64,000 nucleotides of DNA from Mycobacterium vicinigordonae (GTDB lineage Bacteria; Actinomycetota; Actinomycetes; Mycobacteriales; Mycobacteriaceae): contig NZ_CP059165.1 of assembly GCF_013466425.1 (NCBI RefSeq), forward strand, positions 1 to 64,000. Direction: 5' to 3'. Below are positions 7,254 through 54,764 of the stretch, in pieces. Position 1 is the first letter of the stretch; every line of letters starts with the position of its first letter. A program made the translations under genes and the position numbers. The notes under the pieces were generated by a model. That model made no database searches, had not been told where the DNA came from, and worked only from the letters and a program-made list of their open reading frames with translations.

Positions 7254-10358
<3,105 letters not shown>

Positions 10359-37023: not shown

Positions 37024-37440
37024 TCAGGCTGCCGTGCGCGGACCCAGCCGGGCCTGCGGGAGATGCAACACCGCCGCGCTGACGGCCACGGTGCTGCTTT
37101 CGTGCCGGGCCAGCAGCGCGGTGTTCTCCGGCAGCTGCCGGGCATTGATCTCGCCGGCGGCGATGCGGCGCAATTCCTCATGGGCCCGCGCGAGTTGTTC
37201 GCGTTTTCGGTACTGGCCGCCTGGCAGCTTTACGCCGGCCCAAACCCCGTACTCCTCACGATGGGTGATCGCCCGCTGGGCGCACATGCGCTGCTGAGCC
37301 AGCGGGCACCGCCGCAGACATTGAATCCGTGCCTCGGTCGCCGACCGCTCGTAGGCGCGGGCCTTGGCGGCGCCGTCTCCGCCGTCGTCGTCGGGATAAC
37401 CGAACCAGAGTTCTGGGTTGGATGCGCAGGGGTTTGCCAT
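37024..37440 (-). CDS. whiB5: WhiB-family iron-sulfur regulator WhiB5
   Basis: A redox-sensing transcription factor carrying a 4Fe-4S cluster. The 138 residues match the 139 of M. tuberculosis WhiB5. Cysteines at 5, 41, 45 and 53 are the likely ligands, with spacing C-x3-C-x7-C; most WhiB proteins have C-x2-C-x5-C. A glycine-rich turn GVWAG (65-69) replaces the common G-V/I-W-G-G. A basic C-terminal region follows (LPGGQYRKREQLARAHEEL). WhiB5 affects type VII secretion gene expression and virulence in M. tuberculosis. It is divergent from the Rv0023-like regulator heading the partial ESX locus. Confidence 0.9.
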   Translation of the reverse strand: MANPCASNPELWFGYPDDDGGDGAAKARAYERSATEARIQCLRRCPLAQQRMCAQRAITHREEYGVWAGVKLPGGQYRKREQLARAHEELRRIAAGEINARQLPENTALLARHESSTVAVSAAVLHLPQARLGPRTAA

Positions 37441-37582: not shown

Positions 37583-38380
37583 GTGAGCCGTGAGTCGGCC
37601 GGCGCGGCCATGCGTGCGCTGCGCGAGTCCCGTGACTGGTCGCTCGCGGACCTGGCGGCAGCCACCGGGGTGAGCATCATGGGGCTGAGCTACCTGGAGC
37701 GCGGCGCCCGAAAGCCGCATAAAAGCACAGTTCAGAAAGTTGAGAACGGTTTAGGCTTGCCCCCCGGCACCTACTCGCGATTGTTGGTCGCCGCCGATCC
37801 CAACGCTGAACTGGCGCGCTTGCTTGCGACGCAACCGCCCGAACTCGGTATCGCGCGGCGGCCGGGGCCGGTCGTCGTAGACAGGCACGACGACACCGAG
37901 GTGCTGGAGGGATACGCCGAGGCGCAGCTTGAGACGCTCAGGTCGGTCATCGATCGCCTACCAGCGAAGACATCAAACGAATATGAGACGTATATTCTGT
38001 CTGTGATCGCACAGTGTGTGAAGGCGGAGATGCTGGCCGCCAGCTCGTGGCGGGTCGCAGTGAACGCCAGCGTCGATTCGGCCGGACGCCTCATGGAGCA
38101 TCTGCAGGCCCTCGAAGCAACACGCAGCGCCCTGTTGCAGCGAATGCCAGCAAGTCTGAGTGCGCGCTTCGACCGGGCCTGTACGCGGTCGTCGCTGCCA
38201 GATGCGGTTATCGCCGCGTTACTCGGCGTCGGCGGGGACGAGGTTTGGGACATCCGCAACCGGGGCGTCATTCCTCCGGCGGCGATGCCGCGAGTGCGCG
38301 CATTCACCGAGGCGATGGAGCGCGCGCCCGGTTCCGAGCCCAGCCTCGAGTCCGCCGAAGAGTCGGGGGATGACCGGTGA
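37583..38380 (+). CDS. XRE-family transcriptional regulator, Rv0023-like
   Basis: A 265-residue regulator. The N-terminal Cro/CI helix-turn-helix has MRALRESRDWSLADLAAATG, SIMGLSYLERGARKPHKSTV and QKVENGLGLPPGTYSRLLVA. The rest is a helical domain with TSNEYETYILSVIAQCVKAE shared with Rv0023. GTG 37583 was chosen by match to Rv0023; the frame is open to 37418. Its stop overlaps the start of the next gene (GTGA), so it is translationally coupled to the NlpC/P60 gene and may control the whole locus. Confidence 0.9.
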   Translation: MSRESAGAAMRALRESRDWSLADLAAATGVSIMGLSYLERGARKPHKSTVQKVENGLGLPPGTYSRLLVAADPNAELARLLATQPPELGIARRPGPVVVDRHDDTEVLEGYAEAQLETLRSVIDRLPAKTSNEYETYILSVIAQCVKAEMLAASSWRVAVNASVDSAGRLMEHLQALEATRSALLQRMPASLSARFDRACTRSSLPDAVIAALLGVGGDEVWDIRNRGVIPPAAMPRVRAFTEAMERAPGSEPSLESAEESGDDR

Positions 38381-39183
38381 GCCGCCTCGAACTCGAGGCC
38401 CTGCGCCGCGCCCACGATCTTTTCGTTGGCGTGGGTGCGAATCCCGGTGTGGACGCGGGCACCGGGGTGTTTAGTGATGAGTCGAATACCGTTGTCGGAC
38501 AACATCATTATCAACGGACCGCAACCCGCGCCCGGACGGCCCTGACGTCGGCCGCGCAAACGGATGCAGCAGCAACCGCCGTGCTCGCCGGCGCCCATCG
38601 CGATCGCGCCGCCGCGCGCGAGGTCACCGGCGCCGTTCTCGGCGAGGCTCAGGCCGATGCCGCCACCACGCCGACGACACCGCTGGCGCAACGGGAAGCG
38701 ATGCGTCGCCGGGTGGCGCGGTTGCGTGCTCAACGCGCGCACGTCACGTCCGCCCGGAGTCGCTCGCGACGCCACGCTGCGGCGCTGCGCGCGCTGCGTT
38801 ATCGGATGACGCACCATCGCCGCGGACGGCGACTGCCACTGCCGAGCGGGCGGGCCGGGCTCGCGGTGCGCGCCGCGCTCTCGCGGCTGGGCCGGCCGTA
38901 TGTCTGGGGTGCGACCGGTCCCGATCAGTTCGATTGCTCTGGGCTGGTCCAATGGGCCTACGCGCAGGCCGGTGTGCACCTCGATCGCACCACGTACCAA
39001 CAGATCAACGACGGGGTCCCGGTGCCGCGATCGCAGGTGCGACCCGGTGACCTGGTGTTTCCGCACGCGGGCCACGTGCAGCTGGCGATCGGCAACAACC
39101 TGGTGGTCGAAGCGCCATATTCGGGCGCGTCCGTGCGGATCAGCCCGCTGGGCGGCAACGTGCAGATCCGGCGGCCACTGTGA
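38377..39183 (+). CDS. NlpC/P60 cell-wall hydrolase, Rv0024-like
   Basis: A probable peptidoglycan endopeptidase of 268 residues (Rv0024 is 281). The N-terminal half is helical and Arg/Ala-rich (REAMRRRVARLRAQRAHVT). The C-terminal NlpC/P60 domain begins about residue 165: YVWGATGPDQFDCSGLVQWA has catalytic Cys187, and HAGHVQLAIGN has catalytic His233. No signal peptide is evident, so export may depend on type VII secretion. Rv3896c, beside ESX-2, is a paralogue of Rv0024, which supports an ESX-2-like origin for this cluster. Confidence 0.9.
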   Translation: MSRLELEALRRAHDLFVGVGANPGVDAGTGVFSDESNTVVGQHHYQRTATRARTALTSAAQTDAAATAVLAGAHRDRAAAREVTGAVLGEAQADAATTPTTPLAQREAMRRRVARLRAQRAHVTSARSRSRRHAAALRALRYRMTHHRRGRRLPLPSGRAGLAVRAALSRLGRPYVWGATGPDQFDCSGLVQWAYAQAGVHLDRTTYQQINDGVPVPRSQVRPGDLVFPHAGHVQLAIGNNLVVEAPYSGASVRISPLGGNVQIRRPL

Positions 39184-39225
39184 GTCAACGCCCAGTCGAC
39201 TGGGCAGGATGAGAAGGTTAGAGCC

Positions 39226-39588
39226 ATGTCGGACCAAGCCGGGTCTTCGGTAGCGGCCATCCAGCAGCGCCAGGCGGCGCTGGCCAGAAAGCACAGTGCG
39301 ATCGCCGATGCCGACCGGACGTTGGCCGACGTCCTCACTAGCGCACACCAGGCGGTGCGAGATAGCGCCCGCCGGCTCGAGACGATTGCGGCGGAGATCG
39401 ACCGCGCGGTGCCGCAGCATGGCGGTTCGGGCGGCGATACGACGCTGGGTGCGCGCGAGTTCCAGCGTTTCCTGGTCGCAAAGCAGCGTGAGATCGCCGC
39501 CGTGGTGGCCAGCGCACGCGAGGTTAGCCGTACGAAAAGTGCTGTGCTGCAAGGCTTGCAAGACCAATACTCGATCCACACGGGGTGA
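39226..39588 (+). CDS. DUF4226 protein, Rv0025-like
   Basis: A 120-residue helical protein, the same length as Rv0025. It starts [20 protein letters not shown] and ends with a DUF4226-type segment: [20 protein letters not shown] then [14 protein letters not shown]. The same segment recurs in the next gene (RDFQRFLIGKLRDIRAVVAT). It is about 40 bp from both neighbours in one probable operon. Function is unknown; DUF4226 genes occur beside ESX loci. Confidence 0.85.
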
Positions 39589-39626
39589 ATTGCCGAGTTG
39601 GGCGGCCGTAGGTACTGTCCCGCGGC

Positions 39627-41066
39627 ATGGCGACCGATAGGGACGTCTTCGATGCGATGCAGCTCATCGCGGCACGCACCGGTGACCCGAGCGCATGGAA
39701 GGCCGGGTTGACCGGGCAAGAGGTGATCGACTTTCTGAGTCCCGCGACACCCGGCCAGGTACGTGACGCCCTGCTGGACCGGATCCGCCGGCAGCATCCC
39801 GATGTGTTCGACCAACCTGCCGCACCGCTACCGGACCGAGTGCCTGCACCGCCACGCTCACCCGCCCAGCCCGACCGCGCGGACGGCGACGCCGCCAACG
39901 CGATTGCCGAGGCAGAAGCCGCTCTGGCGCACCAGAATTCGGTGACTTCCCAGCTGGATCTGCAGGTCGTCTCGGCCATCCTGAACGCGCACCTGACGAC
40001 CACCGAAGGCAAGGATGCGCTGGCGTCGTTGCAGCGGGAGATCGAGATCGCCGTAGCCACCCGATCGGACCTGGATACCCCGGCCGGCGCGCGCGACTTC
40101 CAGCGGTTCCTGATCGGCAAGCTCAGGGACATCCGGGCCGTGGTCGCGACCGCCGGCCTCGACGACACCTCGAAATCTGCCCTCATGGCTGCTTGGACGT
40201 CGCTGTACAACGCGTCGAAGGAGGAACCCCCCCGCGATCGGGTGGACGCGGCGCCCGCGTACGCGGCTGGTGGTGGTGCCCAGCAGGCGACGCCGGCCGT
40301 CGCCGACATGGGATCAGACCCGCTGCTGGACTCGCTGCTCTTCGACGATCCGGCGGGAGCGCCGATGCAAGAACCTGCTGCTATGCCCGCGGCGACTTCC
40401 GGCGGCGGACTACCCGCGAGCGCGGCGGCGCCGGGCGCCGGCACGGGCTTGCCCAGCTGGGGCACACCGAGCGGTCTGTCGCTGCCCGGCCTGTCGGGCG
40501 GTGCCCCCGGACGCGATGACGGCGGGCTCGGAGACGGGCTCTTCGACGAGGAACCCGATCGGAGCGAGCGCAAGCCGGCCGATGAGGACTCCAACAAGGA
40601 CGATCCAGACCACCAAGACGATCCCCAGCCCCCGGCGGACCAGGGTCAGCCCGAAGCGACAGCGGGGCCGACGACGGTGACGCTCCCCACCGGCGAGACG
40701 GTGACTGCCGCCAGCCCGCAGCTGGCGGCAGCGATCAAGGCTGCCGCGAGCGGAACACCGATCCCCGACGCGTTCCAGCAGCAGGGAATCACCATCCCGC
40801 AACCCGGTACCGCGGTCGCCCACCCCGTGGACCTATCCCAGCTCACGCCAGGTGACATCGGCATCTTCACCGATCGGCACGCCCTCGCCTTGGGCCGCAG
40901 CAAGGCACTGCTCGACGGCCAAATTCAGCAGATCGCGACCGTGACCGGACCCAGCTTTCTAGGCTGGGAGCACCCGCCGGCGCCGGCCTCTCCCGCACCG
41001 GAGACCGCGCCGCCCGCCGGCGAGGCGCCGACGCCTACCCGGCCGTCTGCGACGTTGACCAGCTAG
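39627..41066 (+). CDS. DUF4226 protein with Pro/Ala/Asp-rich centre, Rv0026-like
   Basis: A 479-residue protein (Rv0026 is 448). The N-terminal region contains VFDAMQLIAARTGDPSAWKA. A DUF4226 unit at about 90-195 includes LDLQVVSAILNAHLTTTEGK and RDFQRFLIGKLRDIRAVVAT. A long low-complexity acidic region (about 225-355) follows. The C-terminal part has LSQLTPGDIGIFTDRHALAL. No signal peptide or membrane helix is seen. It lies in the operon between the Rv0025- and Rv0027-like genes. Role unknown; association with a secretion locus suggests a secreted or chaperone-like partner. Confidence 0.85.
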   Translation: MATDRDVFDAMQLIAARTGDPSAWKAGLTGQEVIDFLSPATPGQVRDALLDRIRRQHPDVFDQPAAPLPDRVPAPPRSPAQPDRADGDAANAIAEAEAALAHQNSVTSQLDLQVVSAILNAHLTTTEGKDALASLQREIEIAVATRSDLDTPAGARDFQRFLIGKLRDIRAVVATAGLDDTSKSALMAAWTSLYNASKEEPPRDRVDAAPAYAAGGGAQQATPAVADMGSDPLLDSLLFDDPAGAPMQEPAAMPAATSGGGLPASAAAPGAGTGLPSWGTPSGLSLPGLSGGAPGRDDGGLGDGLFDEEPDRSERKPADEDSNKDDPDHQDDPQPPADQGQPEATAGPTTVTLPTGETVTAASPQLAAAIKAAASGTPIPDAFQQQGITIPQPGTAVAHPVDLSQLTPGDIGIFTDRHALALGRSKALLDGQIQQIATVTGPSFLGWEHPPAPASPAPETAPPAGEAPTPTRPSATLTS

Positions 41067-41123
41067 CCATAGAAAAACAGAACTCGCCGGCCACCGGACC
41101 GGCGAGCAGCAGAGGAGGAGCAG

Positions 41124-41441
41124 ATGGCCGATCGGATCCATGTGGTGCCCGCGCACCTGCGGGACGCAGCTGCCCGTCACCAACAGACCTCCGACCACTT
41201 GCGGACCATCCCGTCCTCGCACGCCGCCATCCAGGACAGCCTGGACTCGCTCGGCCCGATCTTCGGCGAGCTTCGCGAAGCCGGACGCGAACTGCTCGAA
41301 TTCAGGCGGCGCTGCTACGAACAGCAGGCTGACGACCACGCCGAAATCGCCCAGAACCTCGAGATTTCCGCCGCGACCTGGGAGCGGCACGAACAGGAGG
41401 CGGCGGGAATGCTCGGCGGAATCGTCGACGGCGACCGATGA
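41124..41441 (+). CDS. WXG100-like ESX secretion-associated protein, Rv0027-like (DUF2580)
   Basis: A 105-residue helical-hairpin protein, the same length as Rv0027. MADRIHVVPAHLRDAAARHQ and the later helix EFRRRCYEQQADDHAEIAQN resemble the DUF2580 (EspC-like) group, small partners or substrates of type VII systems. A canonical WxG is not present; a Trp occurs late in ATWERHEQEA. ATG 41124 has a GAGGAGG ribosome site. The Rv0028-like gene begins 10 bp downstream. Confidence 0.85.
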   Translation: MADRIHVVPAHLRDAAARHQQTSDHLRTIPSSHAAIQDSLDSLGPIFGELREAGRELLEFRRRCYEQQADDHAEIAQNLEISAATWERHEQEAAGMLGGIVDGDR

Positions 41442-41451
41442 CGGGTCGCGC

Positions 41452-41763
41452 ATGACAGACGCCAATCCCGCCTTCGACACCGTGCACCCCAGTGGGCACA
41501 TCCTGGTTCGATCCTGCCGCGGCGGATACCTGCACAGCGTCGCGCTGAGCGAGGCGGCCATGGAAACCGACGCCCAGACGCTGGCCGAAGGAATCCTGCT
41601 GACCGCCGACGTTTCGTGCCTGAAGGCGTTGCTGGAAGTGCGCGACGAGATCCTCGCCGCCGGGCACACGCCGTCGGCCGAGGTGCCCTCAGCCGACCAT
41701 CTCGACGCCGCGATCGAGAAGCTGCTGACACATCAGCTGCGCAGACGCCCGACGGCGAGCTAG
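41452..41763 (+). CDS. DUF2694-like protein, Rv0028-like
   Basis: A 103-residue protein (Rv0028 is 101). It contains FDTVHPSGHILVRSCRGGYL and HSVALSEAAMETDAQTLAEG followed by a helical C terminus. Similar small proteins are encoded beside other ESX clusters. ATG 41452 lies 10 bp after the previous stop. The stop codon overlaps the stop of a small minus-strand ORF. Function unknown. Confidence 0.82.
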   Translation: MTDANPAFDTVHPSGHILVRSCRGGYLHSVALSEAAMETDAQTLAEGILLTADVSCLKALLEVRDEILAAGHTPSAEVPSADHLDAAIEKLLTHQLRRRPTAS

Positions 41764-41936
41764 AGCAACCAGATCCGCGCGCTGTCGGGATCCGGCGCGA
41801 TATCGACCGGCGGCTCGATCGGGTTGTTGCCGAACAACTCTCGTGCGCGACCGAGTAACGCCCGCACCTCGTCGAGCTGCTGCTGCAACGCAGAATCGGC
41901 CATGAAGGTACGGTACTTCGGCCACCTCGCCGGCAC
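41760..41936 (-). CDS. Small antisense-oriented ORF, hypothetical protein
   Basis: A 58-codon minus-strand frame from GTG 41936 (MPARWPKYRTFMADSALQQQ) with an internal ATG at 41903, then LDEVRALLGRARELFGNNP and a C-terminal PDPDSARIWLL. Third codon positions are strongly G/C and the middle forms a clear amphipathic helix, as expected of a real gene. No strong ribosome site is visible. It is convergent with the Rv0028-like gene and divergent from the Rv0029-like gene, the only opposite-strand gene inside the locus. I do not recognise the family. Confidence 0.45.
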   Translation of the reverse strand: MPARWPKYRTFMADSALQQQLDEVRALLGRARELFGNNPIEPPVDIAPDPDSARIWLL

Positions 41937-41994
41937 AATTCACCGTGTGCATCCGGGGCAACGAACACTCCGCAGCTACCGCTAGGCTTAGCCG

Positions 41995-43203
41995 GTGGGG
42001 ATCTTCGGTCGGGTGACGGCACGCCAGCGCCTGCGCCGGGCAACCGCGGAATCCCTCACGGTACCCACCTTCAGCGGCCCGCCGGATTGCACCCCCTGGG
42101 TGATCGGTGAGTTGTGGCCCGCCGAGCTGTCACGCACCTCACCCGAAACTGCATCGCTCGCAACGTATCTCAAGGCCGACCTGCAACGGATCGCCGACAC
42201 CGCCAATGTCGACCTCAGATCAATGGGCCACGCGGGAATGACATTCGCGGAGCGGCGCGCCGCCGAGGCCCGATTGATCGGCGAAGCTCGAGCACTGGCG
42301 CAGCGACGAGTCGAGTCGACCTTGCGTCAACTGCGCGGCGTTAGCGGCCACGCGTTCACTGACCGCCAACCGTCGGGCGAGGCCGGCCACACGGATATCG
42401 ACAAGACCCAGGTGATCCCCGCCGTCCGCGACGAGCCAGCCGATGAGATTGACACCGCCAGCACCCGGGTGTTGCCCTCCGTGCGGGACCGGCCGGTGCC
42501 CTCAGCTCCGGCGCAACCGGAGGCGCCGCCCCAAGCGCCCGAAAGTGCCGAAGCCGACCGGGTCACAGACCACGAGCACAGGTTGCACGCTCTGCTGGCG
42601 TACGTGGCCCGGCAGGAGCCACGGCTGGGGTGGGCGGTCGGCGAGCGTGCGGACGGGACGACTGTCCTGGTCACTGACCTCGCACATGGTTGGATCCCCC
42701 CGGGGATCGCCGTCCCCGAGGGCGTGCGACTGTTGGAGCCCGACCGCCGGACCGGACGTGCGGCGGAGTTGCTGGGGACGACGACACGGGCGCTGACCTA
42801 CGCTCCAGGCGATCCGTCCAAGCTCTCGTCCGACGTGCCGGCAACTCCAGAGTCGCTGCAACCATTCCAGCTGCCGCCCGTCGATGACCTGGGCTGGGAG
42901 CTCGGCGCAGCGACGCATTGGCGGGATGGGCTGCCACGGCTGGTGAACACGCTGGCCAAGGCGGCCGCTGCTGGTACCGATCTCGTCGACCAGGAAGTGG
43001 ATTTGCTGCGCGTGCACCTGGATACCGCCCGCTACCAGCTGCTGGCCCACTATCCCGAGCCCGATCCGGCCCAGCTTCTCAATTGCATGCTGTTGGCCGC
43101 CACCGAGCGAAGCGTTGCCGGTGACACCATTTCGGCGAACTACCACTTCGCCTGGTTCCGGAAATTGACCGGACCGAAGTCCGGTGAGCAGGCCGAACGT
43201 TGA
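41995..43203 (+). CDS. ESX-locus conserved protein, Rv0029/Rv3899c-like
   Basis: A 402-residue protein (Rv0029 is 365). The N-terminal domain MGIFGRVTARQRLRRATAES with FSGPPDCTPWVIGELWPAEL is followed by a Pro-rich linker (about 140-185) and a C-terminal domain with WAVGERADGTTVLVTDLAHG, WIPPGIAVPEGVRLL and RYQLLAHYPEPDPAQLLNCM. The same architecture occurs in Rv3899c beside ESX-2. Function is unknown. GTG 41995 is the start of the conserved N terminus. Confidence 0.85.
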   Translation: MGIFGRVTARQRLRRATAESLTVPTFSGPPDCTPWVIGELWPAELSRTSPETASLATYLKADLQRIADTANVDLRSMGHAGMTFAERRAAEARLIGEARALAQRRVESTLRQLRGVSGHAFTDRQPSGEAGHTDIDKTQVIPAVRDEPADEIDTASTRVLPSVRDRPVPSAPAQPEAPPQAPESAEADRVTDHEHRLHALLAYVARQEPRLGWAVGERADGTTVLVTDLAHGWIPPGIAVPEGVRLLEPDRRTGRAAELLGTTTRALTYAPGDPSKLSSDVPATPESLQPFQLPPVDDLGWELGAATHWRDGLPRLVNTLAKAAAAGTDLVDQEVDLLRVHLDTARYQLLAHYPEPDPAQLLNCMLLAATERSVAGDTISANYHFAWFRKLTGPKSGEQAER

Positions 43204-43239
43204 ATTGACGCTGGTCGGGGCCATCGACATACTGTCCTG

Positions 43240-43575
43240 GTGTCGGGGTCGGGTCGTCGCGGCGAACTCAGCAACCGCAGCGCCGCCGACGACGAGGCCC
43301 TCGTCGAATCGGTTCTTCGTGAACTGAGCGAAGCAGCCGACAGGTGGGAGGCACTCGTCGCGCAGGCCGAGACCGTCACCTACAGCGTGGACCTGGGGGA
43401 TGTCTTCGCTGTCGCGAATGCCGACGGTCGGTTGCTCGAGTTGACGTTGCATCCGGACGTGATGGACGGCTATGCCCACAGCGAGCTGGCCGACAGACTC
43501 AACCTCGCGATCGCAGCGTTGCGCGACGAGGCCGAAGCCGACAACCAGGCACGGTACGGCGGCCAGCTGCAGTGA
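43240..43575 (+). CDS. YbaB/EbfC-like small protein, Rv0030-like
   Basis: An 111-residue protein (Rv0030 is 109). The core VTYSVDLGDVFAVANADGRL and LELTLHPDVMDGYAHSELAD, then RLNLAIAALRDEAEADN resembles the YbaB/EbfC fold also found in EspL-type proteins of ESX loci. EbfC proteins bind DNA; ESX-associated versions act as accessory factors. GTG 43240 is 36 bp after the previous gene, and eccB begins 21 bp downstream. Confidence 0.78.
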   Translation: MSGSGRRGELSNRSAADDEALVESVLRELSEAADRWEALVAQAETVTYSVDLGDVFAVANADGRLLELTLHPDVMDGYAHSELADRLNLAIAALRDEAEADNQARYGGQLQ

Positions 43576-43596
43576 TGCCCCGAAGGAGAACGATCA

Positions 43597-44739
43597 GTGC
43601 CACTCAATCTGTCCAACCGGGACCAGAATTCGGGGCATCTGTTCTACAACAGGCGATTACGTGCGGCGATCACCCGGTTCTCGGTGCGAATGAAGCACGA
43701 CGACCGCAAGCAGCAGGCCGCAGTGGTGTTGTCGATGGTGCTCGTGCTGCTCGGGGTGGGCTGGATGGCGCTGTTGCACATCATGAAGCCCGCTGGGTTG
43801 GTCGCACAGTCGGCCGTGGTTGGAAACCGTGACACTGGGGCCGTGTACGCCCGAATCAACGGGCGGCTCTACCCCGCATTGAACCTAACGTCGGCGCGGC
43901 TGGCGGTCGGCAATGCCGCGGCACCCACGTGGGTGACCGCCGCCGAGATCGCCAAGTACCCGACCGGCCCCATGATCGGCATACCGGGTGTGCCGGACAG
44001 TCTGCAGGTGACCGCCAGCACGGTGTCCGCGTGGGCGGTCTGTGACACACAGCCAAGCGGTCGTGGCGGTGCGACGTCTCCGGTCGTGACCGCTATCGCC
44101 GGACCCCTCGCACCGCTCGACAGGGCTGCGGCGATGGCGCCGACGCAGGCCGTTCTGGCGACCCATCGGGGCGCCAGCTACGTGATTTGGGGAGGGCAGC
44201 GGTCCCGCATCGACCCGACCGACCGCTCGGTGACATTCAACCTCGGTCTGGACGCCGGGGTGACCTATCCGATCGAGATGTCCAACGCACTCTTCGACGC
44301 GATGCCGTCGACGGAACCGATTGTGCTGCCGCAGATTCCAGAGTCTGGTACACCGTCGCGCTGGTTGGATGGCGGCAGGGTGGGCACCGTGCTGGAATCC
44401 CGTGACGCCGGCGGCGCGGTCAACGGCTTCTACGTACTGCTGCCGGGCGGGGTGCAGAGGATCAGCGCCTTCGTCGCCGACCTGCTGCGCAAATGTCCCG
44501 CCGGTACGAGTCGCGGTAGCCGCGCCGTTGGCACTGCCGGAACGCGAGCCGCGCAACATCTTGTTGATGATCGCGCTGCCCGCTCTGCTGATCGGAATCG
44601 TCGGCACCCTAGTGGTGATGTACGCGTCCGGTGTTCGGTCGCTGCAGTCGGGGTTCTTCCCGATGATCGGCCTCGTTGGGTTCGGCGCACTGATGTTCGG
44701 TGGACGGTTCGGTCGCGGCCGCCGAATCAGTTGGGGTGA
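43597..44739 (+). pseudogene. eccB: eccB (ESX-2-like), truncated by deletion
   Basis: EccB is a core membrane component of type VII secretion with a large periplasmic domain. The start is typical: MPLNLSNRDQNSGHLFYNRR, a single membrane helix QAAVVLSMVLVLLGVGWMAL, then EccB repeats with GRLYPALNLTSARL, VCDTQPSG and VLLPGGVQRISAFVADLLR. Homology stops at about codon 298 (44490); family members are about 480-500 residues. The remaining 82 codons run in the wrong frame through the 5' part of eccC. GTG 43597 has an AAGGAG site. The truncated protein lacks the last periplasmic repeats and is probably inactive. Confidence 0.85.
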
Positions 44740-47700
44740 ACAGGAAAAGCTGCGCCGAAGTTACCTTCGTCAGCTCGACGAGGACCGTGAGGAAATACAG
44801 CGCGCCGCCGGGGAGCAACGCCGCAGCCAGCTGTTCGTGCATGCCGATCCGCAGCACCTCGACACCGTCATCGGCGGCCCACGCATGTGGGAGCGGCGCC
44901 CCACCGATTCGGACTTCCTCGATGTCCGGTTGGGTATCGGGATGCAGCAGGCCAGTGAATCCGCCGTCTCGCTGCAGTGGCCCGACGTTCCGGTCGGCGA
45001 GGAACTCGAGCCGGTAACCGGTGGAGCGCTGCGGGATTTCATCTTGGAACAGAGCAAGATCCGCGGCATCGGCAAGGTACTTAACCTACGGTCCAAGCCG
45101 GGATTCAGCTTCATCGGCGACAACCCGGACGAACTGCACGGTCTGGCGCGAGCGATATTGTGCTCGCTGGCCGTCTACCACAGCCCGCATGACCTCAAGC
45201 TGATGGTGGTCACCCGCCATCCGGAGCTCTGGCAATGGCTGGTGTGGTTGCCGCACAACCAACATGATGAGATGTTCGATGCGTGCGGGCTGCGTCGGCT
45301 GGTCTTCGCCTCCCCTACCGAACTCGAAGACGCACTCGACGCCGAACTGCACCGCAAGGGTCGCGGACCGTGGACGCCGCCGGTGGGAGGCAGCCCGACG
45401 TCCATGCCGTCACCAATCGAATCTACTTCCGGTACGGCGCTGGGTCCGCACTGGGTGATAGTCGACGACAGCGCCGGTACTCCGGAGCAGTGGGAAGGGG
45501 TGACTGGGCAGAAGGGCATGGCTGGCATCACCGTCCTGCGGTTAGCCACCCGTGCCGGCTTAGGCGTCGGATTCACCGAACCAGCGCAACGGTTTTCGCT
45601 CAACCAGGGCAGACTCGTACATCGCGACACCTTCTATGCAGCGGCCGACATGCTGGCGGATTGCACCGCCAACCGCTACGCGCGGGCCCTGGCCCGCTGG
45701 TCACCGATGAGCGCGGCCGCACTGTCCGAAACCGACAGTCAGGGTGGGGAACTGCTGCGCGCGCTGGGTATCATCGATCCACGTGAACTCGATGTCGATA
45801 AACTCTGGGCCGAAAGCCGAGGTCGGGGTGACCCGAACTGGGCAATGGTGCCCGTCGGCGTCAAGCAGGGCGGCGAGCTGCAATACGTGATCCTGCGGGC
45901 CAAAGACTTTGGCGGGTACGGATTTCACTCGGTGGTGATCGGCACGTCCGGGTCCGGCAAGTCCGAATACTTCCTGTCGCTGTGCAGCGGCATCGCGCTG
46001 ACCCACGCGCCGGATACATTCATCGTGATCTTCGTCGACATGAAGTTCGAATCGGCTGCCCAAGACTTGCAAGGGTTTCCGCACGTTGCCGGCTCATTGT
46101 CGAATCTGGGCAAAGACGAACGCCACCTGGCCGAGCGGATGCGCAAGGCCATCAACGGCGAGATCGCCCGTCGGTACCGGCTTTTCAAGGACGCTGGTGC
46201 TCGCGACGCCAACGAGTACGAGGAGATGCGGCTGGCCGGGCGTGATCTGGAACCCGTCCCGATCCTGCTGGTGATTATCGACGAGTACCTCGAGTTGTTC
46301 ATCCACCACCCGGAGTGGATCGACCTGGTGATTCACATTGGGCAGGAAGGCCGCGGCTGCAACGTGTTCTTCACTCTTGGCGGACAGCGGCTGGATCTGT
46401 CGTCGCTGAGTAAAGTGAAGAGCAACATTGCCTTTCGTGTTGCTCTGCGCGCCGAGACGGCGGAGGATTCCCGCGACGTGATCGGCAGCGACGCCGCATT
46501 GCATCTGCCGTCGCAGGAGAACGGCTACGGCCTACTGAAGATCGGGCCGCGCGACCTCGAGCAGTTCCGATGCTTCTACGTGTCGGCCCCGTTCGTGGTG
46601 CCCAAGCGGACACTCAATGTGGAAACGACCGTTGCCATGAGCTTTTCCCAGCCGCGCGCCTACACCTCGGCGTTTCAGCCGTTGAGTGAATCCGATAGCG
46701 CCGCACTGGCAGTGGCTGACGAACCCGAGGAACCTGACGAATTCCTGTTTCACTCCGACGGCTTCCGCAAGAAGAAGCTCGTCGACGTGATAAGGGAGTC
46801 GCTGGTCTCCCTTCCTGCGCGGCCACCACACCAAATCTGGTTGCCGCCATTAGAAGTCAGCGAGACGGTGGACGCGCTGGTGTCGCGGTGGCGTGGCAGG
46901 CCGTGGGACGACGACTACGGCCATAACCCCGGCCTGGTGTTCCCGATCGGCATAGTGGATATCCCCGAGGAGCACGACCAGCGGGTGCATGCGATCAACG
47001 CCGAGATGGACAACATCATGGTTGTCGCGACGGCCCAGCGCGGCAAGTCCACCACGTTGATGACACTGATGGCGTCAGCAGCGCTGATGTACCGGCCGGA
47101 ACGCGTGACCTTCTTTTGCATCGGCGCGTCGCTGTTCCCGATCGAAGAGCTGCCACACGTGGCATCGGTGGTCAGTCCGACTGATCGAGAAGGAGTTTCG
47201 CGCACCATCGCCTCGATCGAGGGGCTGGTCCTGGCCCGGGAGGCGTCGTTCAAGAGGTACCAGATCGATATCTCTGAATTCCGTGAGCGGCGGTTTGGGC
47301 TGGACACCTCGCAAGGCGATGCGTATCAAGCGGGCACCGATCCGGACGACAAGTTCGGGGATGTCTTCCTGGTCATCGACAACTTTAGCGACCTCTACGA
47401 CAAGGACGCCGCGATGGGTGACCGTGCCATCGCGATTGCACGCCAAGGGTTGTCGTACGGGGTGCACGTGATGACCACCGCGACGGCGTGGCTGGTGGGC
47501 CAGAAGCAGCAACTGGTGAACGTCTCCAACGCACGAATTCAGCTGCGGCTGAGCAACCCAGACGAAACCCAGATGGGTGCGGGCTTCGAGCGAAAGAAGG
47601 CGGCGCGCAACACCTTAGACCGGCCCGGCTTCGGGCTGACCCGAGACGGGCACGAACTGTTGGTCGGGATGCCGGAGGTGATCGGAGTCGATGGCCAACG

Positions 47701-48547
47701 GGTGGCGACCCGCGATATCGGCGTACTTATCGCCCAGCTGACCGGCACCGGCAGGGTGGAGAGCTTGGCCCGACTACCGGAACGAATGCCGTTGGCCGAG
47801 GTGGCCGCAGCGTTCGCGGAGACTCCCGGACACGCCGATCCGCTCAACATCCCCTTCGCAATCGGGGAAACCGCGCTACAGCCCGCCGCGCTGCCCACCC
47901 GCGTGCTGCCGCACATGCTGGTTGTTGGGCGCCAGTCATGCGGAAAGACAACTACATTGGCGACCTTCGGGCAGATGATTGTCGCCCGCTGCACCCCCGA
48001 CGAGGCGCAGATCACCATCATCGATCCCAAGACTTCGCTGATTGGGAAGATCCAGGGTGACCACGTGCGGGCCTACGCCTACACAGCCGACGACATCGAC
48101 GCTGTGCTCGCCGAGCTGGCGCAGTTGATGCGCGACCGGTTGCCACCGTCAGGGCTCAGTCAGGAGGAGCTGCTGCGCCGGCGCAGCTGGGACGGCCCGC
48201 ATCACTTCGTGTTGATCGACGACGAACAAGAGCTGCGGCCGCACGGTGTGGTCGGCAAGGCCGCCGCGACGGCGCCGCTGTGGGGGCTGCTCGAGCGCGG
48301 CCGGGAGATCGGTCTGCACGTGATCGCGTCGCGGCTGCCCGGCAACTGGGCGGGCGTGTCGGTCACGAGCCCGTTCTTGCAGAAGATGACCGGTTCGCGT
48401 GCTCCCACGCTATTCATGGACAACGATCCTGCGGCGGTGAAGGTCTTCGGCAGGACCAGTGCCCAGCAGCTGCCGCCTGGGCGAGGCCTGCTGGTCACCA
48501 GCGACGGGGTGATGGAAGGTGTGCTGGTCGCGGACTCACAGGCGTGA
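44528..48547 (+). CDS. eccC: EccC-type FtsK/SpoIIIE ATPase (ESX-2-like), 5' end lost
   Basis: EccC is the motor ATPase of type VII secretion. Homology begins at about 44495 (VPPVRVAVAAPLALPEREPR), so the native start and first 20-30 codons were removed by the deletion that cut eccB. TTG 44528 or ATG 44567 are the first possible starts; translation is unproven. The membrane segment has NILLMIALPALLIGIVGTLV, then a DUF domain. Three ATPase domains are intact, with P-loops GTSGSGKSE (about 45941-45967), ATAQRGKST (about 47029-47055) and GRQSCGKTT (about 47925-47951). The undivided gene is the form found in ESX-2 to ESX-5, not ESX-1. No internal stop in 1340 codons. Confidence 0.82.
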   Translation: MALPEREPRNILLMIALPALLIGIVGTLVVMYASGVRSLQSGFFPMIGLVGFGALMFGGRFGRGRRISWGEQEKLRRSYLRQLDEDREEIQRAAGEQRRSQLFVHADPQHLDTVIGGPRMWERRPTDSDFLDVRLGIGMQQASESAVSLQWPDVPVGEELEPVTGGALRDFILEQSKIRGIGKVLNLRSKPGFSFIGDNPDELHGLARAILCSLAVYHSPHDLKLMVVTRHPELWQWLVWLPHNQHDEMFDACGLRRLVFASPTELEDALDAELHRKGRGPWTPPVGGSPTSMPSPIESTSGTALGPHWVIVDDSAGTPEQWEGVTGQKGMAGITVLRLATRAGLGVGFTEPAQRFSLNQGRLVHRDTFYAAADMLADCTANRYARALARWSPMSAAALSETDSQGGELLRALGIIDPRELDVDKLWAESRGRGDPNWAMVPVGVKQGGELQYVILRAKDFGGYGFHSVVIGTSGSGKSEYFLSLCSGIALTHAPDTFIVIFVDMKFESAAQDLQGFPHVAGSLSNLGKDERHLAERMRKAINGEIARRYRLFKDAGARDANEYEEMRLAGRDLEPVPILLVIIDEYLELFIHHPEWIDLVIHIGQEGRGCNVFFTLGGQRLDLSSLSKVKSNIAFRVALRAETAEDSRDVIGSDAALHLPSQENGYGLLKIGPRDLEQFRCFYVSAPFVVPKRTLNVETTVAMSFSQPRAYTSAFQPLSESDSAALAVADEPEEPDEFLFHSDGFRKKKLVDVIRESLVSLPARPPHQIWLPPLEVSETVDALVSRWRGRPWDDDYGHNPGLVFPIGIVDIPEEHDQRVHAINAEMDNIMVVATAQRGKSTTLMTLMASAALMYRPERVTFFCIGASLFPIEELPHVASVVSPTDREGVSRTIASIEGLVLAREASFKRYQIDISEFRERRFGLDTSQGDAYQAGTDPDDKFGDVFLVIDNFSDLYDKDAAMGDRAIAIARQGLSYGVHVMTTATAWLVGQKQQLVNVSNARIQLRLSNPDETQMGAGFERKKAARNTLDRPGFGLTRDGHELLVGMPEVIGVDGQRVATRDIGVLIAQLTGTGRVESLARLPERMPLAEVAAAFAETPGHADPLNIPFAIGETALQPAALPTRVLPHMLVVGRQSCGKTTTLATFGQMIVARCTPDEAQITIIDPKTSLIGKIQGDHVRAYAYTADDIDAVLAELAQLMRDRLPPSGLSQEELLRRRSWDGPHHFVLIDDEQELRPHGVVGKAAATAPLWGLLERGREIGLHVIASRLPGNWAGVSVTSPFLQKMTGSRAPTLFMDNDPAAVKVFGRTSAQQLPPGRGLLVTSDGVMEGVLVADSQA

Positions 48548-48637
48548 ATCGACAGGTAGCGTACGTCACCTTAGACTCACCAACTCAGCGCTGGCTCGCA
48601 GTTCGAGCCCGTTGCGCGATCGATTTGGGAGGTACGG

Positions 48638-48943
48638 ATGGTTGGACTGTTCGACGTAGTTCCGGGAGCCGTCGACTTGTCGGCGGCCGCGGAGGCGGGC
48701 ATCAGCGAGGAGATGGCGGCCACGACGGCGGCCGGCGCGGCCGCGCTCACCGGAGTGCTGCCAATGGCGATGGACGCCGATTCGATTGAATTCGCGACGG
48801 CGCTAAACGCGGCGGGCGCCGCCTACCTGGCGACGGCCGCCGAGCACGTCGGGCAGCGCGCAGGGTTCTCCGGCGCGCAAGGTCTAGCGTCGGCCACCGC
48901 CGTCGCCGCAGAGGGCTCCAACGCGGGCGCGGTGGGACTTTAG
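48638..48943 (+). CDS. PE-family protein, PE36-like
   Basis: A 101-residue protein. VVPGAVDLSAAAEAGISEEM and DADSIEFATALNAAGAAYLA, then ATAAEHVGQRAGFSG align with PE36 (Rv3893c) of ESX-2. The usual Pro-Glu at residues 8-9 is Pro-Gly here. The C-terminal YxxxD/E secretion signal is present as YLATAAE. ATG 48638 has a GGGAGG ribosome site. It lies 90 bp after eccC and 8 bp before a PPE gene, the classic PE-PPE pair. Confidence 0.82.
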   Translation: MVGLFDVVPGAVDLSAAAEAGISEEMAATTAAGAAALTGVLPMAMDADSIEFATALNAAGAAYLATAAEHVGQRAGFSGAQGLASATAVAAEGSNAGAVGL

Positions 48944-48951
48944 GACCGCGG

Positions 48952-50127
48952 ATGGCCGACCCCAGGTGGACAGGCCCGCCCGAAGTCGTCGCGGCGATCT
49001 TCGAGGCGGGATCGCCTGCGTCCGTTCTCGCCAACAACGTGGTGTGGGTCACCGAGACCGCGAACAACGAGCTGTCGGCCGGCCTGTCGCAGATCAACAC
49101 GTTCGTTACGGCAGCACACTGGCAGGGCGTGAGTTCGGTCGCTTCGACGGTCGCGGCGACCGGCCTCAACGCCGGGCTGCAAACGCTGGTCGGCTGGACC
49201 GCCGAGAAGATCAACGTCACCCAGGCCGCCGTCGAGGCGTTCATGATCGCCCGGTCCTCGGTGATCCCGTCGGTGGTGTCCCAGACGAACCGAGACGAGT
49301 GGACTGTGCTGAACGCCACCAACTTCCTCGGCCAGAACACCCCCGGGATAGTCGAGCGGGATCTGGAGTATTTCGGAGAGCATTGGCCGCACAACTCGCG
49401 GGCGGGCTGGACGTACTCGGGAGCGCTGACGGCCCTGATCGGGTTGCTCGGTGTTCCACCGCCCGTCGCGCCGACGGGCGCCTCCCCGGCGGCACCCGCC
49501 GCAGCGGCTGAGGCGGTCGCGCAGGCCGCCGCCCAGACGGGCATGCGCGATGCGGTGCAGGCGTCCACGCAGGTTTCACAGACCGCTGGGCAGACCACCT
49601 CCTCCCCCGCCGAGGCAACTGGCCAACTCAGTTCGCTAATGCAGGAACCGATGCAAATGGTGTCTGGCGTTACCGGCCCGCTCAAGGAGATGACGCAGGC
49701 GCCGATGCAGGCGGTGCATGGGCTCACTAGCATGCCGCAGAGTTTTATGCAGTCCCTGGGAGGCATGTTCCCGTCGACCGGTGCGCCCAATGCCGTGGCC
49801 GCTGCCGCCGAACCGGTGGTGGCTGCGGGGGGCGTCGCGGGTGGCGGTGGCGCATCCTTGGGTGGTGGTGCCGGTGGGTTTCCCGGCGCCGGGATGACCA
49901 GCTACACCCGCCCCACCAGCAGCTTCGAAGCCGAGGGTGGCCGGGCGGCCAGTCTGCGCGCCAGCATGCTCAACGCTGCTGAGGTGCGGGGGCCCACAGT
50001 GTCCACCGGTGGCGCGCCGATGCCAATGACGCCGACCGGAATGCTGGCGCGCAGTGGGAGCGGCCATGAATCCGAGAAAGACGTGGCCCGGGCTCGCGTT
50101 CAATTTGACGGTGATCGGCCCGCCTAG
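48952..50127 (+). CDS. PPE-family protein, PPE69-like
   Basis: A 391-residue protein aligned along its length with PPE69 (Rv3892c, 399). MADPRWTGPPEVVAAIFEAG, the WxG-like HWQGVSSVAST, RDEWTVLNATNFLGQNTP and DLEYFGEHWPHNSRAGWTYS are shared, as is the Met/Gln/Pro-rich middle (MQMVSGVTGPLKEMTQAPMQ) and the TSYTRPTSSFE C-terminal motif. Unlike full ESX-2 clusters, it is not followed by esxD-esxC or espG; the next gene is convergent. It probably depends on PE partner binding for stability. If no ESX-2 exists elsewhere it would be orphaned. Confidence 0.85.
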   Translation: MADPRWTGPPEVVAAIFEAGSPASVLANNVVWVTETANNELSAGLSQINTFVTAAHWQGVSSVASTVAATGLNAGLQTLVGWTAEKINVTQAAVEAFMIARSSVIPSVVSQTNRDEWTVLNATNFLGQNTPGIVERDLEYFGEHWPHNSRAGWTYSGALTALIGLLGVPPPVAPTGASPAAPAAAAEAVAQAAAQTGMRDAVQASTQVSQTAGQTTSSPAEATGQLSSLMQEPMQMVSGVTGPLKEMTQAPMQAVHGLTSMPQSFMQSLGGMFPSTGAPNAVAAAAEPVVAAGGVAGGGGASLGGGAGGFPGAGMTSYTRPTSSFEAEGGRAASLRASMLNAAEVRGPTVSTGGAPMPMTPTGMLARSGSGHESEKDVARARVQFDGDRPA

Positions 50128-50177
50128 GACATCGTCAACGACTTCGAGCACATGCCTCACCCGGGGGTCGTTGGGAC

Positions 50178-50951
50178 TCAGCGCCCGGGGCCGGGCGGGC
50201 CCGCGAAGGCCTGTGCGATTCCCAACCAGCGCTGCGCATCGTCCCCCACCGCGGTCACGTCCAGCGCCGCCAAGGGTCGTCGCTGGGTGACCAGGAAACA
50301 GAAGTCCTCCGCGGAGCCGGTGACGCGCTGCGCGGCGTGTGCCGGTCCCCAGGACCAGGTATCGCCGCCCGGGCCGCGCAGCTCGACGTAGAACGGCTCG
50401 CTCGGCGGTGCCAGGTTGTTGACGGCATACGCGTAGTCGCGGGCCCGCACCCCGATATGGGCGATCGACCGCAGCCGGTCGGTGGGCGTCCGCGTAACAC
50501 CTAGCGCGTCGGCGACGTCGAGTCCATGCGCCCAGGTCTCCATCAGCCTCGCGGTGGCCATCGACGTTGCGCTCATCGGCGGCCCGAACCACGGCAGCTT
50601 GCGGCCATCGGGAACAGTGAGCAGTGCATCGTGCAGTCGACCGCGGGTGTCGCGCCAGTCAGCGAGGAGTTCCTGCGGCGGCACGGCCGCGAGGTCTTCG
50701 GCACCCGCGTCGACGAAACCGAGGGGGTCGGCGGCCGCGCCGGCCAGGACCTCAGCGAAGCCACTCTCGTCGGTGATCGAGAGCAGCGAAACCCGATCGG
50801 TCCACAGCAGGTGGCCGATCTGGTGTGCGATGGTCCAGCCCGGCGCGGGCGTCGGCTCCGCCCACTGCTGCGGCGCTAGCGGCGCCACCAAGGCGTCGAG
50901 CTCGTCGCTCTCGTCGCGCAGGTCGGCGACGAACGGTCCGGGACCAGCCAT
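50178..50951 (-). CDS. Maleylpyruvate isomerase-like mycothiol-dependent protein, Rv0036c-like
   Basis: A DinB/MDMPI-fold protein of 257 residues, the same length as Rv0036c. The N-terminal metal/mycothiol-binding domain has [20 protein letters not shown] and [12 protein letters not shown] with the conserved His residues. A C-terminal SCP2-like part is [20 protein letters not shown]. The family includes mycothiol-dependent isomerases and transferases; the substrate here is unknown. ATG 50951 has an AGGAGG site just upstream. It lies 10 bp after the MFS gene in the same orientation and faces the PPE gene. Confidence 0.9.
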
Positions 50952-50961
50952 GGAAACCTCC

Positions 50962-52263
50962 TTAAACAACAGCCGCGGGTTGGCGCCGCCGGCCAACGAC
51001 ACCGTGCGCCAGCAACCCGGCCAGATAAATCAACGAGCCCAACAACACGAACAGCGGGGCGCGCCCGTCGCCGGGAATGAACGCCGCCGCCACCGTAACC
51101 GCGGCGATGAACGACACCCAGAACAAGGCGTCCTGTACCGCGAACACGTGGCCGCGCAGCGCGTCATCGACGTCGATTTGCATCGCCGAATCGGCGCACA
51201 GCTTGACCACCTGCCCGGCGGCCCCAAGCAGAAACCCGCATGCCACCATCACCGGCAGCAACAGCGTCGCCCCGCCAGTCTGGATGACTGCTGCTGCCAC
51301 CAAAGCGCCGTTGGCGGTGGCGTACCGCCCCCAGCGACGGACCAGAACGGGGGTCAGCACATTGGACAGAAATGCCCCCAGACCGGTGGCGGCGAAGAAC
51401 AGCAGCGCGGTTCCCAGCCCCTCGATATCGGCGTCCTTCATGTGGTGGACCAGCAGCAGGATCACCAGTGAGTTGATGCCGACGACCATGCGGTGCGCCG
51501 CAAGACCAGACAGCGCGGCCGCCACAGTGGGGCGTTGGACGACCGTCCGCACACCGTGCAACCATCCGGTGACCACGGCGTAGACGGCCGAGCCGTGGAT
51601 CGCGCGCTTGGTGTGGTCTGGGCCGAGCACCCGCGGGGCAAACCGCAGCGACAACAGCAACGCCAGCGACACAGGGATCAGCGCGGTGAAGATGACCACC
51701 GCGGCCCCCTGATCGCCGCCGCCGCCGAGCCAACGCGGCAGCAACATGAAGTTAGCGCCGAGGAAGGCCGCGACGGCACCCGAGGCCGTCGCCACCGAAT
51801 TCATCGTCACCACACTCTCGCGCGGCACCACATGCGGCAGCGATGCGGACATGCAGGCCGACACAAAACGCGCTAAACCGTTGGCCAGCAACGCGGTAAA
51901 CAACAGGACCATGTCGCCGGCGCCGACCGCCAGGATGGCGCCGATCGCGGCGATGAAGCACAACCGCCCAACATTGGCGCCGACCAGCACCAGGCGCCGG
52001 TCCCACCGGTCCATCAATGCACCAGCAAAGGGCCCTAGCAGTGAGTACGGCAGGAACAGCACCGCGAAAGCGCGTGCAATCGCCATCGGGTCGGCGGCTC
52101 GATCGGGGTTGAACAGCAACGCCCCGGCCAGTCCCGCCTGGAAGAGTCCGTCGCCGAACTGACTGGCCATTCGCAGTTGCAGAAGTCGCCAGAAATCGGG
52201 CAGGGCGCGCACCGACCGCCAAAGTTCAACGGGTGCGCTTGCCTGCATCCGGGTGCGAATCAC
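50962..52263 (-). CDS. Major facilitator superfamily transporter, Rv0037c-like
   Basis: A polytopic membrane transporter of about 433 residues with about 12 helices. Features: [40 protein letters not shown] and [14 protein letters not shown] (the loop 2-3 motif region). It resembles Rv0037c (441). The start is uncertain: GTG 52263 follows a GGAAG site, and ATG 52248 and other GTGs upstream to 52320 are in frame. Substrate unknown. It is divergent from yqgE, with about 130 bp between them. Confidence 0.88.
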
Positions 52264-54568: not shown

Positions 54569-54764
54569 CCTCGGTTTCCCTCCGGAATAGCCCGGGCGCC
54601 ACCGCCCGCCCTCGTGGCTGTATATAACCACTGCTCAGACGGCCCGACCACGCCCGAAACACAGCTGGGATGAACCTCTGATCGGTGTGCAACGCAACCG
54701 AGACCAACCCGTGGCCGGCTGCTCGGGGCAGGTCGTCGGGGGCGGTCCTTATACCCTGTTGGGC

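Follow-up and report, generated by a model that had tools for sequence, protein, structure and literature searches.

An ESX-2 secretion locus of Mycobacterium vicinigordonae divided across the replication origin and probably cut by an inversion

ESX-2 loci lying in two places have been described in several mycobacteria. In M. paragordonae ESX-2 is split, with one part beside ESX-1 and low similarity to the M. tuberculosis genes, and lateral transfer has been proposed (PMC6616192). The split ESX-2 of M. decipiens and M. riyadhense is ~56% identical to that of M. tuberculosis, against ~88-90% in M. lacus, M. shinjukuense and M. kansasii, and split, divergent ESX-2 in M. tuberculosis relatives has been called an evolutionarily pertinent open question (PMC11237670). 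Displacement of eccB2-eccC2 is reported for the M. avium complex (PMC4791881), as is patchy ESX-2 loss among M. marinum relatives (PMC9241763). Here we describe an ESX-2 block at 37583..50127 of a 64,000-nucleotide stretch of M. vicinigordonae (positions 1 to 64,000 of contig NZ_CP059165.1, hereafter the window). With a probability of roughly 0.8 for the three points jointly, we read this block of accessory genes, eccB, eccC, PE and PPE as the front half of the genome's only ESX-2, cut from its back half by an inversion spanning the origin of replication (oriC), the halves being predicted to be expressed apart and to cooperate in trans.

Two halves of a single ESX-2

Searches against Pfam and NCBIfam assigned the genes of the block, in order, to HTH, NlpC/P60, two DUF4226, EspC-family, DUF2694, DUF5631/5632, DUF2710, EccB, EccC, PE and PPE proteins. 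All are on the plus strand from the Rv0023-like gene to PPE, between whiB5 (minus strand) and an MDMPI-domain gene starting at 50178; the Rv numbers of the block genes are our own assignment by gene order. These profile matches confirm the gene content given in an earlier note made from the sequence alone (Rv0024-Rv0030-like genes, then eccB, eccC, PE and PPE). The eccC gene (44504..48547, start likely at 44504) encodes EccCa and EccCb fused in one frame, with TIGR03924 and TIGR03925 both above cut-off. Among PDB chains, its third ATPase domain scored highest against EccC2 (6jd5, 221.9 bits), followed by EccC5 (126.1), EccCb1 (80.7) and EccC3 (66.2). The M. tuberculosis EccC2 chain itself scored 522 bits against the EccC of genome G060 and 222 against that of the window, and defines what we call the M. 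tuberculosis type. In an EccC tree (all trees were built from fetched genomes), window-type and M. tuberculosis-type EccC formed one clade (95/96), beside plasmid pMpg-2 of M. paragordonae and apart from ESX-5 and the rest, with a warning of long branches. Grouping with ESX-1, which the earlier note had named as an outcome that would speak against ESX-2, was not seen; the tree and the best PDB score agree with the ESX-2 type that it had read from the fused eccC.

The genome (6.27 Mb, one contig) carries six EccB genes, at ESX-1, ESX-3, ESX-4, ESX-5, an extra ESX-4-like locus and the window block; the first four loci are named on the assumption that gene order identifies them. Neither a second ESX-2-type eccB or eccC nor the complete ESX-2 that the earlier note had proposed to look for was found among these six loci. 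The counterpart of the window block lies at 6,236.9-6,246.0 kb, on the minus strand and adjoining ESX-1, and consists of esxD and esxC (both WXG100-type), espG, a ParA-like gene, eccD, mycP, eccE and eccA, without eccB, eccC, PE or PPE. Toward oriC it is followed by an Rv3906-like gene and then pcnA. From eccB to esxD is ~64 kb across oriC, on opposite strands, so the two loci do not form a single contiguous operon. Across both of them, the ESX-2 core set (eccB, eccC, eccD, mycP, eccE, eccA, espG, Esx pair, PE and PPE) is complete, with eccB truncated. EccD, mycosin, EccE and EccA scored above their NCBIfam cut-offs and EspG above that of Pfam; two proteins, EsxD (22.2 bits) and PE (19.8 bits), did not reach theirs. 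What the earlier note had taken for a second, partial copy made by duplication is better read as one half of the genome's only ESX-2, the other half being beside ESX-1.

The extra ESX-4-like locus (L096, 4,432,000-4,451,900) carries eccB, two eccD, eccC, mycP, eccE and a ParA-like gene; neither an esx gene nor a PE or PPE gene was called in it. The EccC encoded there clusters with that of the genome's own ESX-4, both being long-branched.

Gene order on the two sides of the origin

Five genomes with the older gene order were mapped (SM1, M. fragae, M. methanotrophicum, G073 and G029). In all five, one side of oriC holds whiB5 and the Rv0023-Rv0030-like genes, eccB, eccC, PE, PPE and the esx genes through to eccA as one locus; these whole, contiguous ESX-2 loci behind Rv0030 are the fuller copies that the earlier note had suggested seeking in relatives. 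The other side reads pcnA-Rv3906-(Rv0036c-Rv0037c)-Rv0038-Rv0040c-leuS, again in 5/5. Exceptions are the Rv0023-whiB5 pair, inverted in G029, and Rv0036c and Rv0037c, which had no match in SM1. The latter is also the sole one of the five in which ESX-1 was seen, lying past ESX-2 on the same side. This genome and its nearest relative found (G059, EccC 95% identical) instead have PPE / Rv0036c-leuS on the right and Rv3906 / esxD-eccA on the left. The flanks are reciprocally exchanged, the strands are reversed and oriC lies inside. A single inversion with breakpoints at PPE|esxD and Rv3906|Rv0036c yields exactly this order and is the likely explanation, and we infer one event in a common ancestor, by which an ancestral contiguous ESX-2 behind Rv0030 would have been cut. 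The right-hand junction (PPE / Rv0036c) falls at 50128..50177, with no strand assigned; in the mapped older-order genomes, Rv0036c-leuS adjoins Rv3906-pcnA. The first gene beyond it is the Rv0036c-like MDMPI-domain gene (50178..51002, minus strand, profile match), and the exchanged flank is marked by a gene at 54687..57635 (plus strand), presumably leuS, which served as a marker in the order surveys.

A survey of 148 genomes of the genus scored marker order by leuS against pcnA and up to four eccC candidates per genome at E <= 1e-190. The two markers were adjacent in 90 genomes, apart on opposite strands in 26 and on different contigs in 30, one marker being missing in the other two. Window-type eccC was present in 32/148 genomes (G023 being counted with a fragment, G047 with two pieces and G088 with a copy interrupted by a stop) and window-type ParA-like genes in 31/148. 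Where both halves were on one contig and the marker order was known, ESX-2 was split in 12/12 genomes of inverted order, with the halves 64-76 kb apart on opposite strands, and contiguous in 10/10 of non-inverted order, within 4-8 kb on the same strand. G124 is also split, with its marker order unresolved. The accessory genes Rv0023-Rv0030 stood ahead of eccB in seven of the ten contiguous genomes mapped, and Rv0029-Rv0030 only in the remaining three (G026, G109 and G142).

Movement of one half by transposition, or in several steps, would avoid the two breaks that an inversion needs, and the M. avium-type split has been called a transposition (PMC4791881). It is nevertheless unlikely here, given the reciprocal exchange of both flanks and the opposite strands of the halves in 13/13 split genomes measured.

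Moreover, the trees join the two halves. Eight split rows formed one clade in the EccC tree (100/100) and 11 split rows one clade in a combined EccA+EccD tree (100/99), in both cases within the window type; the combined tree left out M. asiaticum and G096, whose frames are partial, and rows missing either protein. The front and back halves share one history. A separate lateral gain of the front half, the account offered for M. paragordonae (PMC6616192), could draw on the low similarity to the M. tuberculosis genes, the patchy distribution and the related plasmid locus. However, the back half of this genome is equally dissimilar, both halves are of the window type and the exchanged flanks fit an inversion; with both trees in hand we rejected a separate gain as the less likely account, and consider it very improbable.

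Two lineages, a probable scar and predicted promoters

Between the M. tuberculosis type and this genome, identity is 58-62% for EccC (68% for one partial match) and 44-50% for EccD; at M. tuberculosis-type ESX-2 loci, relatives of the window PE and PPE are 46-55% and 34-44% identical, respectively. The M. tuberculosis type (eccC plus ParA-like gene) was present in 36/148 genomes. Within the four eccC candidates scored per genome, none of the 148 genomes had both ESX-2 lineages or a mixture of them. EccC of neither type (37-42%) occurred in six genomes. Five M. tuberculosis-type genomes have an additional ParA-like gene (61-64%), which was excluded from the counts. In the two of these that were fetched, G085 and G039 (L255/L256), this extra copy (61-65%) stands alone, with no other ESX-2 marker within ~10 kb.

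Because no genome among the 148 showed both lineages, replacement fits better than duplication. Duplication would suit the ESX-2 type of the block and the Rv0024 and Rv0029 paralogues beside M. tuberculosis-type ESX-2; indeed the Rv0029-like and NlpC-like relatives that the earlier note had placed beside ESX-2 were found there. We rejected duplication since this genome has no second or complete ESX-2, both lineages together were seen in 0/148 genomes and the back half is of the same lineage as the front, and we regard it as scarcely credible. Under replacement, the inverted clade would first have carried the window type, whose place would in some lineages have been taken by a complete M. tuberculosis-type operon. 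The Rv0023-Rv0030 block of M. tuberculosis-type genomes is then likely the scar of the replaced ancestral ESX-2, with the front half lost. The earlier note's view of this orphan block as an ESX-2 remnant therefore holds up, and its derivation from a duplication does not.

In the 33 fetched loci without eccC, Rv0036c follows Rv0030 (or Rv0029) by 14-241 bp. Searches of the 27 gaps longer than 30 bp among these loci found no eccB, eccC, PE or PPE leftovers of the window type. A second kind of scar is seen in Mycolicibacterium-type loci, 6/8 of which have Rv0029-Rv0030 and then the first five eccB codons fused to another gene (L030, L034, L038, L042, L043 and L047, near 11.5 kb in each). The joint is identical in all six and, for this reason, is likely the deletion scar of an ESX-2 left by one event. 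On pMpg-2, DUF5631, DUF4226, EspC-type, DUF2694 and DUF2710 genes stand ahead of a complete ESX-2-like set.

A promoter-like motif marks both sides of the cut. Contiguous and split window-type loci alike carry the sequence TGAAGTGACA, followed by a TA-box, ~80-113 bp upstream of esxD. Of the exact TGAAGTGACA matches in the fetched, overlapping loci, 30/35 were at esxD with a measured distance, two at one M. fragae site and three at one SM1 site. In 14/14 contiguous loci tested, 43-128 bp separate the motif from the stop codon of the long frame before it. The equivalent place in M. tuberculosis-type loci carries GTGAATCGACA together with either TACACT or TAGACT (8/8). A search of the window for the exact esxD motif gave no match, but a variant stands there before PE and PPE as a predicted promoter at 48544..48577 on the plus strand (TGAATCGACA, a 17-nt gap and TAGACT). 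In the fetched, overlapping sequence (3.9 Mb), the two-part pattern was counted 62 times and the reversed pattern not once. A scan of the whole genome gave three matches, before PE, before esxD and at 1,028,037, and again none to the reversed pattern.

Of 23 split-group loci, 16 have the full form before PE and the other seven a form with one mismatch; the split was seen directly in 18 of these loci (13 full, five one-mismatch), the other five being grouped by kinship. Contiguous loci had the full form in 0/15, with a one-mismatch form in M. methanotrophicum, and M. tuberculosis-type loci in 0/8, two of them with a one-mismatch upstream box. The split clade thus likely has matching predicted promoters on both sides of the origin. 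Since the motif precedes both PE and esxD and has three matches in the genome, the cut probably separated transcription units, falling just ahead of a predicted internal promoter. A more specific reading, to which we would give even odds, is a two-site regulon: the inversion would have occurred beside the internal promoter, the split clade would carry a copy of the motif before PE-PPE, the halves would still be co-expressed in trans, and the M. tuberculosis ESX-2 would be a later whole-operon replacement, with Rv0023-Rv0030 as the scar of the system that it replaced. That the genome has only three motif matches, with two at ESX-2, adds weight to this reading.

Predicted function, decay and comparison with described systems

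The ESX membrane machine consists of EccB, EccC, EccD, EccE and MycP; EspG escorts PE-PPE proteins and EccA is cytosolic. In the proposed arrangement, each half would be expressed from its own promoter, and EccB, EccC and PE-PPE from one site would assemble as one machine with EspG, EccD, MycP and EccE from the other, while the Rv0023-Rv0030-like genes may regulate and chaperone ESX-2. The PE gene of ESX-2 (48638..48943, plus strand; Pfam PE, E=0.00098, 19.8 bits against a cut-off of 22) is called by its position and its conservation in relatives; the PPE gene (48952..50127, plus strand; Pfam PPE, E=8.1e-18) is the last of the front half. At its other end the block begins with an Rv0023-like XRE/HTH regulator (37583..38380, Pfam HTH_3), followed on the same strand by an Rv0024-like NlpC/P60 protein (38377..39183, Pfam NLPC_P60, E=5.3e-22) and, by profile match, Rv0025-like and Rv0026-like DUF4226 proteins (39226..39588 and 39627..41066). 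Next, also on the plus strand, come an Rv0027-like EspC-family protein (41124..41441, Pfam T7SS_ESX_EspC), an Rv0028-like DUF2694 protein (41452..41763, profile match) and an Rv0029-like DUF5632/DUF5631 protein (41995..43203, profile match). The last accessory gene encodes an Rv0030-like DUF2710 protein (43240..43575, plus strand, profile match) with weak YbaB similarity; it is possibly EspL-like, and the protein at the EspL position of this genome's own ESX-1 belongs to the YbaB family.

Divergent from the block is a regulator gene at 37024..37440 (minus strand; Pfam Whib, E=1.9e-9) that we take to be whiB5. The Rv0023-whiB5 gene order given in PMC7020754 agrees with this label, and the same source, citing Casonato 2012, reports that WhiB5 regulates esx-2 in M. 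tuberculosis. The Rv0029-like protein matches PDB 5imu by sequence (E=1.9e-31). This structure is Rv3899c, whose fold resembles that of EspK, the EspB chaperone, and Rv0029 is described as having the EspK fold (PMC9811218); the Rv0029-like protein of the window is thus a likely EspK-type chaperone.

Two further observations concern other frames of the window. A minus-strand open reading frame (ORF) of 47 aa lies at 41760-41903, between the DUF2694 and DUF5631 genes, and has counterparts at the equivalent place in G059, L011, L024, L039 and L065. Downstream of the window start, which by position we assume to be dnaA, the frame at the gyrA position (7254-10358) is 1034 aa long, exceeding the usual length of an intein-free mycobacterial GyrA.

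The eccB of ESX-2 (43597..44739, plus strand) is truncated: its native frame runs to ~44491 and continues in an out-of-frame tail that overlaps eccC. The EccB profile covered positions 2-324 of 474 only, and the native frame stops after ~300 codons, whereas EccB of window-type relatives measures 478-504 aa (a range that excludes pieces cut by locus ends; SM1 was called at 466 aa). Relative to G059, 648 bp are missing at the end of eccB, the deletion stopping just before eccC, and the EccB of G059 is full, aligning over 1-493 in a single frame without stops. ESX-2 is probably disabled or weakened in this strain by the loss of the eccB end. The earlier note's statement that this species keeps more of the locus remains true of its gene content, with the reservation that eccB is broken in this strain.

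Several observations weigh against the reading put forward here. Besides the truncated eccB, eccC is broken in two in G047 and interrupted by a stop in G088, it was not found in G128 though the back half is present there, and the PPE of G059 could be aligned over 277/391 residues only; on these grounds, the split system may be decaying in several lines. Both best trees make the contiguous rows paraphyletic, a topology that no starred branch forces; in the bootstrap, 8% and 12% of trees placed these rows on one side. Nor does the ESX-2 locus always include the accessory block, because G026, G109 and G142 have no Rv0023-Rv0028 and, in them, 165-290 kb separate ESX-2 from leuS. Rv0029-Rv0030 are also present in eight fetched loci without eccB, and may have other uses; in the one genome of these eight searched for another ESX-2 (that of L030), the best EccC was 33% identical. 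The esxD motif is absent in M. methanotrophicum and pMpg-2. Lastly, the cut of the M. avium-type split is between eccC and PE, and a test for a simple inversion there, with this genome as a proxy, gave no support, the flank genes of that split being far apart here.

The defects in eccB and eccC, with the missing eccC of G128, would also suit a dead remnant, in which the split inactivated ESX-2 and its parts are fading. We consider this possible but doubtful. In comparisons of this genome with four split relatives, dN/dS was 0.02-0.33 across genes of both halves (eccC 0.05-0.07, eccA 0.06-0.11 and esxD 0.02-0.04, with pcnA as a yardstick at 0.09-0.10), over a dS of ~0.4-1.6 in ESX core genes, and most split genomes looked at carry full-length frames. 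The low ratios argue that selection has kept both halves since the species of this comparison diverged.

Compared with described systems, the locus shares its gene set and order within each half with the M. tuberculosis ESX-2 (Rv3884c-Rv3895c), and EccC2 gave its best PDB score. The M. tuberculosis type differs in belonging to another lineage, in being usually contiguous and in having its own accessory genes, whereas ESX-2 is here split about the origin. pMpg-2 (NZ_CP025548) resembles the window in its accessory genes of the Rv0025-Rv0030 type, which on the plasmid precede a complete ESX set; it differs in being plasmid-borne and contiguous, with EccC 47% identical. This further ESX-2-like lineage (L249) has IS200/IS605-type genes within the accessory block. 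ESX-2 of the M. avium complex likewise lies in two places, and in G060, which from the published description presumably belongs to that complex, one part is on the side of pcnA and the other past leuS; it differs in its M. tuberculosis-type lineage and in being cut between eccC and PE. The G060 locus (L242/L243) is a second, separate split across the origin.

An inversion offers one testable cause for split ESX-2, ties the orphan Rv0023-Rv0030 genes and whiB5 to this system, and suggests that the ESX-2 of M. tuberculosis is a replacement. The arrangement is also an experiment of nature on whether a secretion machine can operate when its genes are divided between two sites, one on each replichore. 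The splits of M. paragordonae, M. decipiens and M. riyadhense are very likely the same arrangement as that described here. For these, the published accounts propose lateral transfer or leave the origin open, and in the sections consulted they do not mention an inversion, a link to Rv0023-Rv0030 or the motif (PMC6616192, PMC11237670); nor did we find an open-licence paper giving any of the three. The split itself is already published; the inversion, the Rv0023-Rv0030 link and the motif are new as far as the open-licence papers searched show.

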